DNA from: Flavobacterium sp.
Lineage (GTDB): Bacteria > Bacteroidota > Bacteroidia > Flavobacteriales > Flavobacteriaceae
Assembly: GCA_017989775.1 (NCBI GenBank)
Contig: JAGNPF010000001.1
Coordinates: 1,619 to 18,655 of the forward strand
Reading direction: 5' to 3'
DNA: 17,037 nucleotides
Below the pieces are notes generated by a model, which was given only the letters and a program-made list of their open reading frames with translations, was not told the DNA's origin and did no database searches. Made by a program: the position numbers and the translations under genes. Every line of letters starts with the position of its first letter. Position 1 is the stretch's first letter. Positions 12,052 through 17,037 of this stretch are shown one piece after another.

Positions 12052-13302
12052 TTACAACCCAAAAGCAGCTTTCACTTGATCCACGAAATCCAGTTTTTCC
12101 CAAGTAAACAACTCTACGGTCACTGTTTTTTCAACACCTCCAGGAGCGGAGAATGTTTTGGTCACGGTTTCTGGCTGACGCCCCATGTGTCCGTAAGCAG
12201 CCGTTTCGCTGTAAATAGGATTTCTCAATTTCAAACGTTGCTCGATGAAATAAGGACGCATGTCAAAAATGGCTTCCACTTTTTTGGCGATTTCACCATT
12301 GGTCAAATTCACTTTTGAAGTTCCGTAAGTGTCAACAAAAATTCCCATTGGTTTGGCAACCCCGATGGCGTAAGAAACCTGAACCAAAATCTCGTCGGCA
12401 ACACCAGCTGCAACCAAGTTTTTGGCAATGTGACGCGTGGCATAAGCCGCACTTCTGTCCACTTTACTAGGATCTTTTCCGGAGAAAGCACCACCACCAT
12501 GGGCTCCTTTTCCACCGTAAGTGTCCACGATGATTTTTCTTCCCGTCAATCCAGTGTCTCCGTGTGGTCCACCAATCACGAATTTCCCGGTAGGGTTGAT
12601 GTGGTATTGAATTTGGTCATTAAATAAATGAGCGTATTGAGGATATTTGGCCTTGATTCTTGGAATCAAAATAGAGATTAAATCACTTTTAATTTTAGCC
12701 AACATTTCAGCCTCTGGTGCGAAATCGTCGTGCTGAGTCGAGATAACAATCGCGTCAATTCGTTGTGGTTTGTTGTCGTCGGAATATTCCAAAGTTACTT
12801 GCGATTTGGCATCAGGGCGCAAATAAGTAATCTCGGAATTCTCTCTTCTGATATTGGCCAATTCAACCAACAAGGCGTGCGCAATATCCAAAGCCAATGG
12901 CATGTAGTTTTCGGTTTCGTTGGTGGCATAACCAAACATCATTCCTTGGTCACCAGCACCTTGTTCTTCTTTGCTGGCTCTGTCCACACCTTGGTTGATG
13001 TCGGCAGATTGCTCGTGAATGGCAGAAAGAACACCACAAGAATTGGCTTCAAACATATATTCACTTTTGGTATAACCAATTTTTTTGATAACCTCTCTTG
13101 CAATAGTTTGAACGTCCAAATACGTTTCAGATTTTACTTCACCAGCCAAAATAACTTGTCCAGTTGTAACCAAAGTTTCGCAAGCCACTTTTGATTCTGG
13201 GTCAAATGCCAAGAAATTATCAATTAGGGCATCAGAAATTTGATCTGCTACTTTGTCTGGATGTCCTTCACTCACTGATTCTGACGTAAATAAATAAGCC
13301 AT
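12052..13302 (-). CDS. metK: S-adenosylmethionine synthetase
   Basis: MetK makes S-adenosylmethionine from methionine and ATP in the cytoplasm. All family hallmarks are present: [15 protein letters not shown] near the N-terminus (His14 of GHPDK), GAGDQG at residues 115-120, and GGGAFSGKD at 269-277 followed by [11 protein letters not shown]. The 416-aa length is slightly longer than the roughly 384 aa of E. coli MetK and typical of Bacteroidota. It lies on the minus strand, divergent from metY, behind a promoter at 13436-13465 and a leader of about 125 bases carrying a SAM-II-like aptamer, so feedback by its own product is likely. The assignment is secure. Confidence 0.98.
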
Positions 13303-13321
13303 AATAATATAGATTTTATAA

Positions 13322-13384
13322 TTAAGCGAGAAAAAAGGTGGATTGCGGGAAAATAGTACTAAAGGAGAGTTGCTGCTTTAGCAT
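13322..13384 (-). CDS. possible short ORF in the metK leader (20 codons)
   Basis: An ATG at 13384-13382, inside the 3' part of the SAM-II-like aptamer, opens a 20-codon frame ending with TAA at 13324-13322, 19 bases before metK and in a different frame. The product would begin MLKQQ and end FFLA. If the aptamer folds, the ATG lies next to the pseudoknot strand and could be masked. It may be chance: the region is short and no homologue is known to me. Confidence 0.25.
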
Positions 13385-13422
13385 TTTTTTAACGAGGTTG
13401 CAATCAGTTCAAATTTTTCCTC
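13373..13422 (-). ncRNA. SAM-II-like riboswitch in the metK leader
   Basis: On the minus strand the RNA reads GAGG (13422-13419), a 21-base loop ending UGAUUGCAA, CCUC (13397-13394), then GUUAAAAAAAUGCUAAAG and CAG. P1 is GAGG/CCUC. Compared with the known SAM-II aptamer, the loop aligns without gaps over its last 19 bases (13 identical, including all of AUUGCAA). The 3' part matches the pattern GUGAUAAAUG..GCUAAA. Pseudoknot pairs UUGC with GCUAA are kept, and CUG (13407-13405) can pair with CAG (13375-13373) where SAM-II pairs ACC with GG, a compensatory change. It begins within about ten bases of the predicted transcription start. SAM-II binds SAM and lowers expression. Assignment by eye; a covariance search against RF00521 and RF01826 would decide. 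Confidence 0.7.
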
Positions 13423-13435
13423 TAAAATTCGGCTG

Positions 13436-13465
13436 CAAAGGTATGAAACCAAATTGAATTGCAAA
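13436..13465 (-). promoter_or_regulatory. metK promoter
   Basis: On the minus strand TTTG (13465-13462), an 18-base spacer and TACCTTTG (13443-13436) match the Bacteroidota promoter consensus exactly. Transcription should start near 13429, which puts the SAM-II-like element at the very 5' end of the mRNA. Confidence 0.75.
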
Positions 13466-13721
13466 TTAATCTTGACTAATTTTTTAAATTAAAAAGAAGA
13501 TTTGTTATTGGTTTTTTCGAAACAGATTGGAGAAGACAACTTGTTAACACTAACTTAAAGTAGTCATAATGTCAAATCCATTTGTTGGTCATATCTTTGA
13601 AATGTCAAATCAAAGGGGTGGAATAAAGGGATTTTGAAGGTTCCTTGGATAAAAGGCTCCTGATTGATTTGGTTTTTAATTCATTAGAATTAATGAAAAA
13701 TAGCTGTTTTTCAAGAAAACA
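13466..13721. other. noncoding stretch between divergent metK and metY control regions
   Basis: No credible gene is seen. It holds a perfect TAnnTTTG-type -7 box TATCTTTG (13592-13599, plus strand, without a good -33), two copies of ATGTCAAATC, and a 7-bp hairpin TTCATTA/TAATGAA (13680-13697). The plus-strand transcript leading to metY probably begins here or at 13722-13753. Confidence 0.4.
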
Positions 13722-13753
13722 TTTGGTTTTCTAAATAATAGTTTAGATATTTG
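13722..13753 (+). promoter_or_regulatory. possible promoter for the metY leader
   Basis: TTTG (13722-13725), a 20-base spacer and GATATTTG (13746-13753; seven of eight positions fit TAnnTTTG counting the free ones). It lies 22 bases before the first short leader ORF. No promoter-like sequence is found between the first terminator and the second leader ORF, or between the second terminator and metY, so this or TATCTTTG at 13592 would have to serve metY. Confidence 0.4.
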
Positions 13754-13775
13754 TCACAACAAAAAGAGAAGCAAA

Positions 13776-13844
13776 ATGAAATTTATGATTTGTAATATGT
13801 CGAAACAGGTTAAGGAGAAGTCCTGTGGGTCGCCTATTGCATAA
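13776..13844 (+). CDS. short leader-type ORF 1 (22 codons, Met/Cys-containing)
   Basis: This ATG-started frame of 22 codons begins MKFMICNMSK and ends SCGSPIA before TAA. Five of the 22 residues are Met or Cys. Its stop lies 28 bases before the stem of a strong intrinsic terminator, the spacing expected of an attenuator leader peptide. It shares the in-frame nonamer ATGATTTGT (Met-Ile-Cys) with leader ORF 2. No homologue is known to me. It could instead be chance, or a small peptide gene of its own ended by the terminator. Confidence 0.4.
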   Translation: MKFMICNMSKQVKEKSCGSPIA

Positions 13845-13867
13845 ATTTAAATTCAAATTTATATAAT

Positions 13868-13904
13868 AAAAAAAGCTTCCCAAGTAACGGGAAGCTTTTT
13901 TTTT
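13868..13904 (+). terminator. intrinsic terminator 1 upstream of metY
   Basis: AAGCTTCCC (13873-13881) and GGGAAGCTT (13889-13897) form a 9-bp perfect stem with loop AAGTAAC. A-run and T-run flanks extend it, and nine Ts follow on the plus strand. The A-run on the left also lets it work on the minus strand. No real gene on either strand needs it, apart from the short ORF just upstream. Confidence 0.88.
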
Positions 13905-13934
13905 GAATCCATGATAATCACAAGAAACAATACG

Positions 13935-14024
13935 ATGAACAATTTTAAACAGCAACAAATGAACTTCAACAATGTCAAATCGATGATTTGTGCAAAGTCT
14001 ATGAAGTTGGTGTGTGTCTGTTGA
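13935..14024 (+). CDS. short leader-type ORF 2 (29 codons, Met/Cys-rich) upstream of metY
   Basis: The frame opens at ATG 13935 (alternative ATG at 13959 giving 21 codons). It starts MNNFKQQQMNF and its last 14 codons read SMICAKSMKLVCVC before TGA. Seven of 29 residues are Met or Cys, with Cys at 19, 27 and 29, so the ribosome meets Cys codons just before the stop. The stem of a strong terminator starts 31 bases later and metY 133 bases after the stop. This is the classic layout of a leader-peptide attenuator, here plausibly reading charged tRNA-Cys or tRNA-Met to control homocysteine synthesis. A clear antiterminator pairing was not found by eye, so the mechanism is inferred. Confidence 0.5.
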   Translation: MNNFKQQQMNFNNVKSMICAKSMKLVCVC

Positions 14025-14054
14025 TTCCGAAAGTATGAGTTATAACAAAACTTG

Positions 14055-14098
14055 AAACCCTTTTGGATAGCCGTCTAAAAGGGTTTTTTATTTTTTTA
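14055..14098 (+). terminator. intrinsic terminator 2 directly upstream of metY (putative attenuator)
   Basis: AAACCCTTTT (14055-14064) pairs with AAAAGGGTTT (14077-14086). The stem can extend into the loop by a few pairs (GGA with TCT). A T-rich tail runs to 14097. It ends 60 bases before the metY start with no TAnnTTTG box in between, so metY expression seems to require readthrough. Confidence 0.9.
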
Positions 14099-14157
14099 GG
14101 CCCAAAAAACACAAGAATATTTCAAAATTAAATACAAACAAATCTAAAATAAATATT

Positions 14158-15438
14158 ATGAGTACTACAAAATTCGCGACAAACGCATTACACGCAGGAC
14201 ACGATGTTGCCAAAACAGCAGGAACCAGGGCGGTGCCTATTTACCAAACCAGTTCTTACGTGTTTAACAATTCGGATCACGCGGCCAATTTATTTGGACT
14301 TGCCGAAGCGGGATTTATATATACAAGATTGAACAATCCAACAAACGATATTCTGGAACAACGCCTGGCAGCCCTTGAAGGAGGTATTGCTGCCGTAGTT
14401 ACCGCCTCGGGAACAGCAGCCATTGCCACTTCCTTGTTGGTTTTGCTCAAGGCGGGCGACCATATAGTGGCTTCGAACAGTTTGTATGGTGGAACATACA
14501 ATTTGTTGAGTGTCACTTTGCCAAGGCTGGGAATCACCACCACGTTTGTGGATCCATCGGATGCAGCCAATTTTACCAAGGCAGCCCAAGAAAACACCAA
14601 AGTGTTCTTTGCGGAAAGCTTGGGGAATCCAAAATTGGACGTCTTGGATTTGAAAGCCATTTCGGCAGAAGCCAAAGCTTTTAAAGTTCCTTTTATCGTG
14701 GATAATACGGTTCCTTCACCTTATTTGTTGAATCCTATTGAGCACGGCGCCAATATCGTGATTCATTCCTTGACCAAATACATTGCAGGAAATGGGACAT
14801 CGCTAGGTGGAGCGGTTATTGATGCGGGAACATTCGATTGGAGCAGCGGAAAGTTTCCAGAATTTACAGAACCATCTGAAGCCTATCACGGACTAGTTTA
14901 TCACGAAGCGTTGGGAAATGCGGCTTTTATTGCCAAGGTTCGAATCGAAGGCTTGCGGGATTTTGGAGCGGCCTTAAGTCCGTTCAATGCTTTCCAGATT
15001 ATCCAGGGACTCGAAACTTTGCAGGTTCGTGTCCAGAAGCACAGTGAAAACGCATTGGCTTTGGCGCAATGGCTGGAAAAGCAGGACGCAGTGGCTTGGG
15101 TCAATTATCCAGGGTTGAAGTCCAGTAAATATCACGATTTGGCAACACAATATTTACCTAAAGGACAAAATGGCTTGCTAACTTTCGGCCTCAAAAACGG
15201 ATTTGAAGCCGCCAAGAAAGTGGCCGATGAAACAAAGTTGTTTTCGCTCTTGGCCAACATTGGAGACACCAAATCATTGATTATCCATCCGGCCAGCACC
15301 ACGCACCAGCAGTTGTCCGATGCAGACCAGGTCGCCACGGGAGTGACCAAGGATTTAATCAGGCTCTCGGTCGGGCTGGAAGACATCGAAGACTTGAAAG
15401 CCGATTTGCAATCTGTTTTCGAAAATTTAAAAGTATAA
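14158..15438 (+). CDS. metY: O-acetylhomoserine sulfhydrylase (O-acetylhomoserine aminocarboxypropyltransferase)
   Basis: This PLP enzyme of the Cys/Met metabolism family joins O-acetyl-L-homoserine with sulfide to give homocysteine, the direct-sulfhydrylation route to methionine. Seen: YTRLNNPTND at residues 55-64, the PLP-phosphate loop ASGTAA at 83-88, Tyr110 of SLYGGTYN, Asp182 of VDNT (pairs with the PLP ring nitrogen), and the Schiff-base lysine Lys207 in HSLTKYIAGNG. The 426-aa length is that of MetY rather than the shorter cystathionine gamma-synthase or beta-lyase. The substrate donor gene metX is 650 bp downstream on the same strand, and metK is divergent. Expression probably depends on the upstream leader ORF/terminator units. 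The gene call is secure; sulfide as co-substrate is known from the family. Confidence 0.96.
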   Translation: MSTTKFATNALHAGHDVAKTAGTRAVPIYQTSSYVFNNSDHAANLFGLAEAGFIYTRLNNPTNDILEQRLAALEGGIAAVVTASGTAAIATSLLVLLKAGDHIVASNSLYGGTYNLLSVTLPRLGITTTFVDPSDAANFTKAAQENTKVFFAESLGNPKLDVLDLKAISAEAKAFKVPFIVDNTVPSPYLLNPIEHGANIVIHSLTKYIAGNGTSLGGAVIDAGTFDWSSGKFPEFTEPSEAYHGLVYHEALGNAAFIAKVRIEGLRDFGAALSPFNAFQIIQGLETLQVRVQKHSENALALAQWLEKQDAVAWVNYPGLKSSKYHDLATQYLPKGQNGLLTFGLKNGFEAAKKVADETKLFSLLANIGDTKSLIIHPASTTHQQLSDADQVATGVTKDLIRLSVGLEDIEDLKADLQSVFENLKV

Positions 15439-15521: not shown

Positions 15522-15734
15522 ATGGAAACTCTAAAATATATAACAGGCACATTAATTCAGTTTTTCAAAAGTTTGAATGGAACATCAAAAGCGAATGCTG
15601 AGAACAATGGTAACGAAGAAATAACACACACCAAATTTGGCATCAATTTAAAAAGGGCGCCCACTGCTGGAAAAACGCCAAGTTCTTTGTTGACTTTAAT
15701 GTATTCTGAAGAAAACGAAACGCTTTTCATCTAA
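15522..15734 (+). CDS. small protein of unknown function (70 aa)
   Basis: The frame starts at ATG 15522 and ends at TAA. The N-terminus (METLKYITGTLIQFFKSLNG) looks like a short amphipathic or weakly hydrophobic helix. The rest is polar with Asn/Glu/Lys (NAENNGNEEITHTKFGINLK) and ends YSEENETLFI. I recognise no family, signal peptide or metal site. It lies between metY and the metX riboswitch, behind a weak hairpin and before a good terminator, so it could be a minor last gene of the metY transcript. The terminator placed just after it argues for a real transcript end here. Alternatively it is a random open frame in an AT-rich gap. Confidence 0.5.
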   Translation: METLKYITGTLIQFFKSLNGTSKANAENNGNEEITHTKFGINLKRAPTAGKTPSSLLTLMYSEENETLFI

Positions 15735-15876: not shown

Positions 15877-15904
15877 TGCTTTTAAGTTCACAAACGTATT
15901 GAAA

Positions 15905-16009
15905 TGTTATAAAGAAAGCTCGAGGGAATAGACCCGATGAAAGCTTAGCAACCCTTTGCCAACGAAGAAGGTGCTACATTCTATCCCGATTTATCGGGAA
16001 AAGATAACA
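15905..16009 (+). ncRNA. SAM-I (S-box) riboswitch upstream of metX
   Basis: The aptamer is nearly canonical. P1 is TGTTAT (15905-15910) with ATAACA (16004-16009). P2 is AAGCT (15916-15920) with AGCTT (15942-15946), enclosing the kink-turn core GAGGGA..GACCCGATGA (15922-15940). GCAACC (15948-15953) precedes P3, followed by the conserved AAGGTGCTA (15968-15976). P4 is TCCCGA/TCGGGA (15984-15999) with a TTTA loop. S-box RNAs bind SAM and turn down methionine genes; here the target is metX, 77 bases downstream. The downstream platform is not a strong terminator (only CTAGA/TCTAG, 16018-16032, with a mixed C/T tail). Confidence 0.95.
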
Positions 16010-16017
16010 ACAAGATT

Positions 16018-16085: not shown

Positions 16086-17037
16086 TTGGAAAATAAACCA
16101 ACATCTATCATATTACAAAATTTCACCACCGAAAGTGGCGCATTTTACGCATCCTTGAATTTGAGTTTCCAGATTTTTGGACAAGCTTTAAACACGGCTC
16201 CCATTGTTCTGGTAAACCACGCCTTGACCGGGAATTCCCAGGTTATTGGTGCAAACGGTTGGTGGAATATTCTCATTGGCGAAAACAGGACCATCAATAC
16301 CGATAAATACACCATTTTGGCTTTCAACGTTCCCGGCAATGGTTACGATGACGTCTTGATAGAAAACTATCTGGATTTTAACGCAAGGGATGTGGCCAAA
16401 CTTTTTCTGGAAGGAATCAAAATATTGAAAATACAGCAATTGTATGCCATTATCGGTGGTTCTGTTGGTGGAGGAATTGCTTGGGAAATGGTGGCTTTGG
16501 AGCCAAAAATCACCGAACATTTAATCCCGATTGCCACCGACTGGAAATCGACGGATTGGTTGATTGCCAATTGTTTTTTGCAGGAACAAATCCTGAATAA
16601 CTCTTCAAAACCGATTGAAGATGCCCGAATTCACGCCATGTTGTGTTACAGGACGCCAGAGTCGTTCAAGGCCAAATTCCAGCGGACGACCAACGAGGAA
16701 CAGGCGATTTTCAATGTGGAAAGTTGGTTGAATCATCACGGCAAGAAATTGCAAAAACGGTTCCAGCTTTCGGCTTATCGAATGATGAACCAGTTGCTCA
16801 AAACCATTGACATCACCAGAAACAGCGATTCATTCGAGGAGATTGTTTCCAGAATAGAAGCCGAGATTCACATCATCGGCATTGATTCCGATTTGTTTTT
16901 TACGGCCAATGAGAACAAGGAAACCTTCGAAGAATTGAAAAAACTGGATAAAAAGGTGTCCTACGGCGAGATAAAATCCATTCACGGACACGACGCATTT
17001 TTGATAGAATACAAACAATTAGACAAATTGCTTAAAG
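16086..17037 (+). CDS. metX: homoserine O-acetyltransferase (C-terminal end beyond right edge)
   Basis: The open frame runs from 16086 to the edge (317 codons). It is an alpha/beta-hydrolase enzyme that acetylates homoserine from acetyl-CoA, giving the substrate of MetY. Seen: VLVNHALTGNSQV near residues 40-52, the nucleophile elbow GGSVGG with Ser126, IDSDLFF with Asp269, and HGHDAFL with His302, forming the Ser-Asp-His triad of the MetX family. The elbow has Val where GGSMGG is usual. The start is TTG: a TGA stop sits two codons upstream at 16080-16082, no ATG is available near the N-terminus, and TTG-GAA-AAT-AAA gives the expected start of the protein. Only a few C-terminal residues should be missing. 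It is controlled by the SAM-I riboswitch upstream. Homoserine succinyltransferase activity is unlikely given MetY nearby. Confidence 0.93.
   Translation, partial: MENKPTSIILQNFTTESGAFYASLNLSFQIFGQALNTAPIVLVNHALTGNSQVIGANGWWNILIGENRTINTDKYTILAFNVPGNGYDDVLIENYLDFNARDVAKLFLEGIKILKIQQLYAIIGGSVGGGIAWEMVALEPKITEHLIPIATDWKSTDWLIANCFLQEQILNNSSKPIEDARIHAMLCYRTPESFKAKFQRTTNEEQAIFNVESWLNHHGKKLQKRFQLSAYRMMNQLLKTIDITRNSDSFEEIVSRIEAEIHIIGIDSDLFFTANENKETFEELKKLDKKVSYGEIKSIHGHDAFLIEYKQLDKLLK

Follow-up and report, generated by a model that had tools for sequence, protein, structure and literature searches.

The stretch of Flavobacterium genome analyzed here (17,037 nucleotides, hereafter the window) carries metK (12052-13302, minus strand) and metY (14158-15438, plus strand) in divergent orientation. 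The metY product belongs to the O-acetylhomoserine sulfhydrylase family and scores 632.5 bits against the NCBIfam subfamily model TIGR01326 (cut-off 495.1). The original prediction had proposed one leader frame and one terminator ahead of this gene. That unit is real, but it is the second of two: the plus strand of the intergenic region holds two successive units, A and then B, each composed of a Met/Cys-rich frame and a terminator, and the upstream one (13776-13902) had been missed. Both were recovered by a scan that required a strong, T-run-bearing hairpin closely preceded by a Met/Cys-rich frame, whereas none of 400 dinucleotide shuffles of 13429-14157 yielded even one unit in the same scan. 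Judging from the sequence, the tandem units very probably form a series of ribosome-mediated transcription attenuators responsive to the charging of Met- and Cys-tRNA.

Leader B (13935-14024, plus strand) encodes MNNFKQQQMNFNNVKSMICAKSMKLVCVC followed by a stop codon, and has the 29 codons and seven Met/Cys residues, start Met included, that had been described for it. With the in-frame ATG at 13911 as the start, the leader would have 37 codons; in the closest relatives the frame begins at the equivalent of 13935. The covariance model built for leader B (R2) scores this copy, itself part of the training set, at 83.8 bits. Terminator B (14054-14096, plus strand) is present and strong as claimed, with a stem at 14054-14087, a T-rich tail to 14096 and a folding energy of -18.3 kcal/mol (z -4.87), but the stem has 15 pairs rather than the reported 10 bp. 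No clear antiterminator had been found by eye; folding gives one, in which segment 2 (UCCGAAAG, 14026-14033, plus strand), directly 3' of the stop codon, pairs with segment 3 (CUUUUGGA, 14060-14067, plus strand), which is also part of the terminator 5' arm (-8.7 kcal/mol, z -2.54, 1 of 200 shuffles as good).

This pairing covaries. Over 54 leader B sequences, 86.1% of the antiterminator cells are paired, as against 33.2-65.1% when the alignment is slid by 1-3 columns, and the covariation score was reached by none of 500 column shuffles; one pair position alone is occupied by GU (23), UA (10), AU (9) and GC (6). The segment 2:3 duplex energy has a mean z of -2.23 and lies within the best 5% of shuffles in 32 of the 54. 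Double-sided pair changes (4) and extra pair types were not above shuffles (271 and 282 of 500). Segment 2 is TCCGAAAG in the window's clade and TGCCAAAAG in others, located at or just after the stop codon. Terminator B is paired in 99.2% of cells, with 7 of its 12 pairs changed on both sides. By duplex energy, a protector hairpin was not detected in leader B (mean z 0.01, best 5% in 1 of 54).

Leader A (13776-13844, plus strand) has 22 codons, encoding MKFMICNMSKQVKEKSCGSPIA and then a stop, and scores 101.2 bits with its own covariance model (R1), whose training set includes this copy. Its length in relatives is 18-25 codons, with 22 codons in 59 of 86, a spread partly set by the classification rule (maximum 26 codons). 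Terminator A (segments 3 and 4, 13868-13902, plus strand) has its T-run at the stem end and just 3' of it and folds with -18.4 kcal/mol (z -5.04), an energy that none of 200 shuffles equaled; it is absent from the output of a simple terminator scanner. Matches of Phe_leader, Thr_leader and other Rfam families at this terminator were far under the gathering scores and were taken as chance.

Leader A occurs in two types, the commoner type 1 (37 sequences) and type 2, the window's own (15 sequences, window included). In type 1 the antiterminator, formed by segment 2 GCAGAG with CTCTGC, is paired in 98.6% of cells compared with at most 53.1% when slid, its covariation score was reached by 0 of 500 shuffles, and its duplex energy is in the best 5% in 34 of 37 (mean z -3.21); the type 1 terminator is paired in 99.4% of cells and shows compensatory changes. 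In type 2 the corresponding pairing reaches 76%, no better than two slid versions, although its covariation score is higher, and the duplex energy is in the best 5% in 4 of 15 (mean z -0.88; window copy -8.9 against a shuffled mean of -7.42). The antiterminator of the window's own leader A type is thus weak.

Within the leader A frame, segments 1 (ACAGG, 13805-13809) and 2 (CCUGU, 13822-13826, then GGG) form a predicted protector hairpin (13805-13829, plus strand). The window copy, at -5.2 kcal/mol, is equaled by 52 of 200 shuffles and so does not stand out from them. Across type 2 it is paired in 94.7% of cells over the 15 sequences, with a mean duplex z of -1.97 (best 5% in 7 of 15). In type 1 it is paired in 79.5% of cells with no covariation above shuffles, a result to which misregistered rows in the alignment contributed; the mean duplex z of this type is -1.34 (best 5% in 9 of 37). 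These duplex energies suggest that segment 2 of leader A tends to have an upstream partner. A model in which both leaders are open by default was dropped for leader A after this protector test.

A single promoter is predicted for the leader transcript at 13722-13753 (plus strand), with TTTG at 13722-13725 and GATATTTG at 13746-13753, an imperfect match at 7 of 8 positions to TAnnTTTG, which the consulted part of one study describes as the Bacteroidota -7 promoter motif (PMC7366714). Among 84 distinct regions the motif occurs within 80 nt 5' of leader A in 27, against 5.0 expected, and 18 of 28 occurrences start 26-35 nt ahead of the ATG; this enrichment is firm. Upstream of leader B copies that lack a classified leader A it was found in 1 of 56 (2.8 expected), and none of the 60 stretches that separate terminator A from leader B has it (2.9 expected). 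It was likewise absent between terminator B and metY in all 58 distinct regions (only 0.9 expected) and between terminator A and metY in the 21 regions with only leader A (0.6 expected). These absences after the terminators are weak evidence that no promoter lies there. In the window itself, the sole perfect plus-strand match in 13401-14160 is at 13592, so that, as the original prediction held, none lies between terminator B and metY.

The arrangement recurs in relatives. From 169 metY upstream regions, nearly all of the genus, 146 were kept once those with identical ends, those that were too short and those whose hit had less than 60% identity had been dropped, and at least one Met/Cys-rich frame with a terminator was found in 142 of these non-identical regions, two or more units within 900 nt in 72. 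In the remaining four (L118, L120, L121 and L170) the scan gave no unit, and no clear unit was seen on reading the 330 nt upstream of metY; R1 matches L118, L120 and L121 weakly (28-32 bits). The frames were picked partly by Met/Cys content, so these counts show recurrence and are not an unbiased codon test. The gene itself was found at E 1e-150 in only 84 of the 150 genomes of the genus sample. The spacers are variable, and what recurs are the frames, the stop-proximal segment 2 and the terminators. ATG, TGT and TGC make up 0.25 (leader A) and 0.358 (leader B) of in-frame triplets against 0.025-0.104 in the other frames, values that the Met/Cys-based choice of frames inflates. About 80% of the Met/Cys codons lie at least 14 nt 5' of segment 2. 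With 14 nt taken as the ribosome footprint, a ribosome stalled on these codons would not reach segment 2. The proposal of a ribosome-mediated attenuator for sulfur amino acids ahead of metY is supported by this geometry, which holds in the window and recurs in relatives.

Related leaders precede other genes. At E 0.01 or better, R1 matched in 145 and R2 in 126 of the 150 genomes of the genus sample, often with weak scores. The next identified gene after 98 chosen hits resembled metX in 37, OsmC in 27, cysH in 6, metB/C in 3, metY in 3, cysE, metH, homoserine dehydrogenase and an aspartokinase-type gene in 2 each and a TonB receptor in 1, with none identified in 13. In family scans of examples, cysH exceeds an NCBIfam cut-off (PRK02090) and cysE that of a serine acetyltransferase model; the metX and metB/C examples fall under the equivalog cut-offs, so these names are family-level, and the nearest metX-like start is often more than 1,000 nt away, which makes the metX-linked assignments looser. 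For cysH, 16 of 30 loci were read, of which a script flagged 8 and one (L290) was discarded by eye, leaving 7; the other 14 had no covariance model match at 1e-4. For metH, 8 of 30 loci were read and leaders were present in 1. The share Cys/(Cys+Met) is 0.38-1.0 in 16 cysH/cysE leaders against 0-0.12 in 5 metB/C-like and metH leaders (one-sided Mann-Whitney P 0.0005; leader A alone, 10 against 4, P 0.002, the rows being related, so that these values are only a guide), and the same contrast is seen inside single genomes (G163, G105 and G053). The metX-linked leaders are mixed, with Cys shares of 0.43 and 0.46, and among the copies linked to metX no more than one Met/Cys is present in 5 of 19 for leader A and in 3 of 17 for leader B. 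Codon content thus tracks the pathway at the extremes, not everywhere.

These contrasts bear on whether the RNA might sense a metabolite or uncharged tRNA directly, as a riboswitch or T-box, with the short frames incidental. SAM riboswitches of two classes flank the locus, so that RNA sensing of this pathway is already in use here. However, no Rfam family, T-box and SAM riboswitches included, reached its gathering score within 13430-14157, the parts that recur are the frames, segment 2 and the terminators while the spacers vary, and the Cys and Met codon shares differ between the cysteine and the metB/metH leaders. We consider direct sensing quite improbable.

Leaders before OsmC genes (L202, L203, L206, L208, L213 and others) keep the architecture with Trp/His/Tyr codons about as frequent as Met/Cys codons: per 100 residues, Trp+His+Tyr amount to 12 against 11 for Met+Cys in leader A and 17 against 17 in leader B. 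Together with a Trp codon in 39 of 86 leader A frames, they would favor a genuine attenuation mechanism whose signal is translation in general or some other amino acid. Pairing can nevertheless explain the Trp codon, which lies inside segment 1 (TGTGGAA), and in the cysH, cysE, metB/C-like and metH leaders Met+Cys amount to 23-32 per 100 residues against 2-9 for Trp+His+Tyr. A signal other than Met/Cys is very unlikely for the metY leaders, and attenuation by Met and Cys codons is the reading we retain.

Lack of conservation of the short frame in relatives had been put forward as a refuting result, and it did not occur: the frame recurs as a Met/Cys-rich frame, though the exact peptide is not kept. 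For leader B in the window's clade pN/pS is 0.39 in frame against 0.76 and 1.22 out of frame, whereas another leader B family gives 1.03 in frame against 1.18 and 0.48, and leader A gives 0.68 (0.72 and 0.85 in the other frames) for type 1 and 0.75 (0.87 and 0.87) for type 2. Purifying selection at the peptide level is therefore seen only in the window's leader B clade, with little or no support elsewhere, and Ka/Ks was set aside as the main proof of coding, being uninformative or contrary outside that clade. Where Cys is conserved in the clade, its codon is TGT in some sequences and TGC in others (8:1, 5:2 and 7:1). This pattern is compatible with, and does not prove, leaders that are constrained by codon identity and RNA pairing but not by the remaining peptide. 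As to initiation, A at -3, favored at F. johnsoniae starts (PMC6847099), is found in leader A at 71 of 80 distinct starts and in leader B at 81 of 111. As an alternative, the frames could specify small proteins rich in Cys and Met that have a function of their own, such as binding metals or thiols, with terminators that simply end their transcripts. Their recurrence with A at -3 and the low pN/pS of the window's clade would speak for it, but the peptides are widely divergent, the 3' codons of leader A agree with what RNA pairing requires (PQR and SAE arise from one CCGCAGAG segment read in different frames) and no promoter motif was found between the terminators and metY; we regard this alternative as very unlikely.

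Under the attenuation model, the features of an attenuator are predicted in both units: a frame with codons for the pathway product, an intrinsic terminator with a T-run and covariation, and an antiterminator that shares the terminator 5' arm, weak in the window-type leader A. From the frames, predicted terminators, alternative pairings, covariation, recurrence and codon content we infer translation, stalling and a switch with the following logic. The whole transcript would be driven by the single predicted promoter 5' of leader A. With ample Met and Cys, a ribosome would complete each leader and hide segment 2, the segment 3:4 terminator would form and transcription would end before metY. With Met or Cys scarce, the ribosome would stall on Met/Cys codons 5' of segment 2, which would be free to capture segment 3, so that no terminator would form and the polymerase would read through to metY. 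In this series arrangement, transcription of metY would need both units open. Leader A would behave in a trp-like manner, its weak predicted 1:2 protector inside the frame closing segment 2 when the leader is untranslated. In leader B no protector was detected, so that an untranslated leader B would stay antiterminated.

In the enterobacterial trp, his and ilv attenuators a leader frame enriched for codons of the amino acid that the pathway makes is combined with mutually exclusive antiterminator and terminator structures. The metY leaders resemble them in the product-codon frame and the predicted mutually exclusive structures, and leader A perhaps also in its weak predicted protector hairpin. 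They differ in using Met and Cys codons, in having two units in series, in their occurrence in Bacteroidota, and in a leader B that has no detected protector and carries its segment 2 at or just after the stop codon.

In Actinobacteria, Cys-rich leader peptides are described before cys operons, and in the mycobacterial cases no conserved terminator hairpins were reported and Rho was suspected (PMC1262725, in the sections available). The flavobacterial leaders share with these the short frames, the runs of Cys codons and the position before cysteine genes; unlike them, each flavobacterial frame is accompanied by a predicted intrinsic terminator and antiterminator. The tandem attenuators of Salmonella mgtCBR, whose signals are given as ATP and proline in the text available to us (PMC3641672), also have two short frames per leader, one of which senses a charged tRNA (Pro); there the two signals differ, whereas both metY leaders carry sulfur amino acid codons. 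The nearest precedent among the matches listed is in the same genus: a Flavobacterium psychrophilum transcriptome paper mentions strong clues for leader peptide attenuation before amino acid biosynthesis operons (PMC9723704), which is the mode proposed here for metY. Its main text contains methionine, metY, metX, metK and cysH 0 times and cysteine once, for a protease; partial prior notice in its supplement is possible. Among the full-text matches listed, which leave subscription literature mostly outside, there was no Met/Cys leader attenuator before met or cys genes in Bacteroidota. Attenuation itself is already known, and the Met/Cys tandem arrangement before metY would be a variation on it.

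If true, sulfur amino acids, and methionine especially, would join what ribosome-mediated attenuators sense, in a phylum for which the searchable literature covers such control thinly, and the cell would possess a direct sensor of its own sulfur amino acid supply. The difference in codons between cysH and metB leaders makes the specificity of this sensor directly testable. A wider reading is also conceivable, which we put forward tentatively, being somewhat inclined to doubt it: much of the flavobacterial sulfur regulon could be under one modular family of tandem leaders whose Met/Cys codons suit the gene controlled (Cys ahead of sulfate assimilation, Met ahead of the final steps to methionine, and the two together ahead of metY and metX), leader B being a default-open, translate-to-terminate switch. 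Methionine is hard to sense in this way, as it is also the initiating amino acid, and the design of leader B would answer that: on this same tentative reading stalling and failed initiation would both open leader B, making it a fail-safe methionine sensor.

Among 196 genomes of the order, R1 at 1e-4 matched in 18 of the same genus and 11 others (best outside the genus 2.1e-7) and R2 in 18 and 3 others, both models being tied to the sequence of the genus. A Met-rich frame with a terminator lies 5' of metY in a member of another family (L017). Fourteen loci with weak matches outside the genus were read by eye. From their sequences, L239, with an MCCMCMC-type frame, and L241, with a Met-rich frame before a metX relative of 49.8%, look like leaders, and L247, before an aspartokinase-like gene, may be a threonine-type leader; the other 11 did not resemble leaders.

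The layout around metY varies. In one genome (G006, L181:6547-9898, minus strand) a TonB-dependent receptor-like gene stands between leader A and leader B, so that the receptor would come under leader A and metY under leader B. In some species another leader A and B pair is found 3' of metY, followed by a SAM-I riboswitch and a metX-like gene (L181:3076-3395, minus strand; L199:2331-2615, plus strand), and in L199 the frames of this pair have almost no Met/Cys. In the window, R1 and R2 searches gave no second pair 3' of metY. A SAM-II riboswitch (Rfam, 67.0 bits) lies ahead of metK at 13368-13428 on the minus strand and a SAM-I riboswitch (76.4 bits) at 15904-16010 on the plus strand, 3' of metY; with the leaders, themselves predicted, three kinds of RNA control would act side by side on one pathway at this locus. 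A frame of 70 amino acids with no NCBIfam family match (15522-15734, plus strand) separates metY from the SAM-I riboswitch. Downstream of the riboswitch, a metX-like frame (16086-17037, plus strand) runs past the end of the window; no early ATG was seen in it by eye, and it may start at a TTG near 16086.
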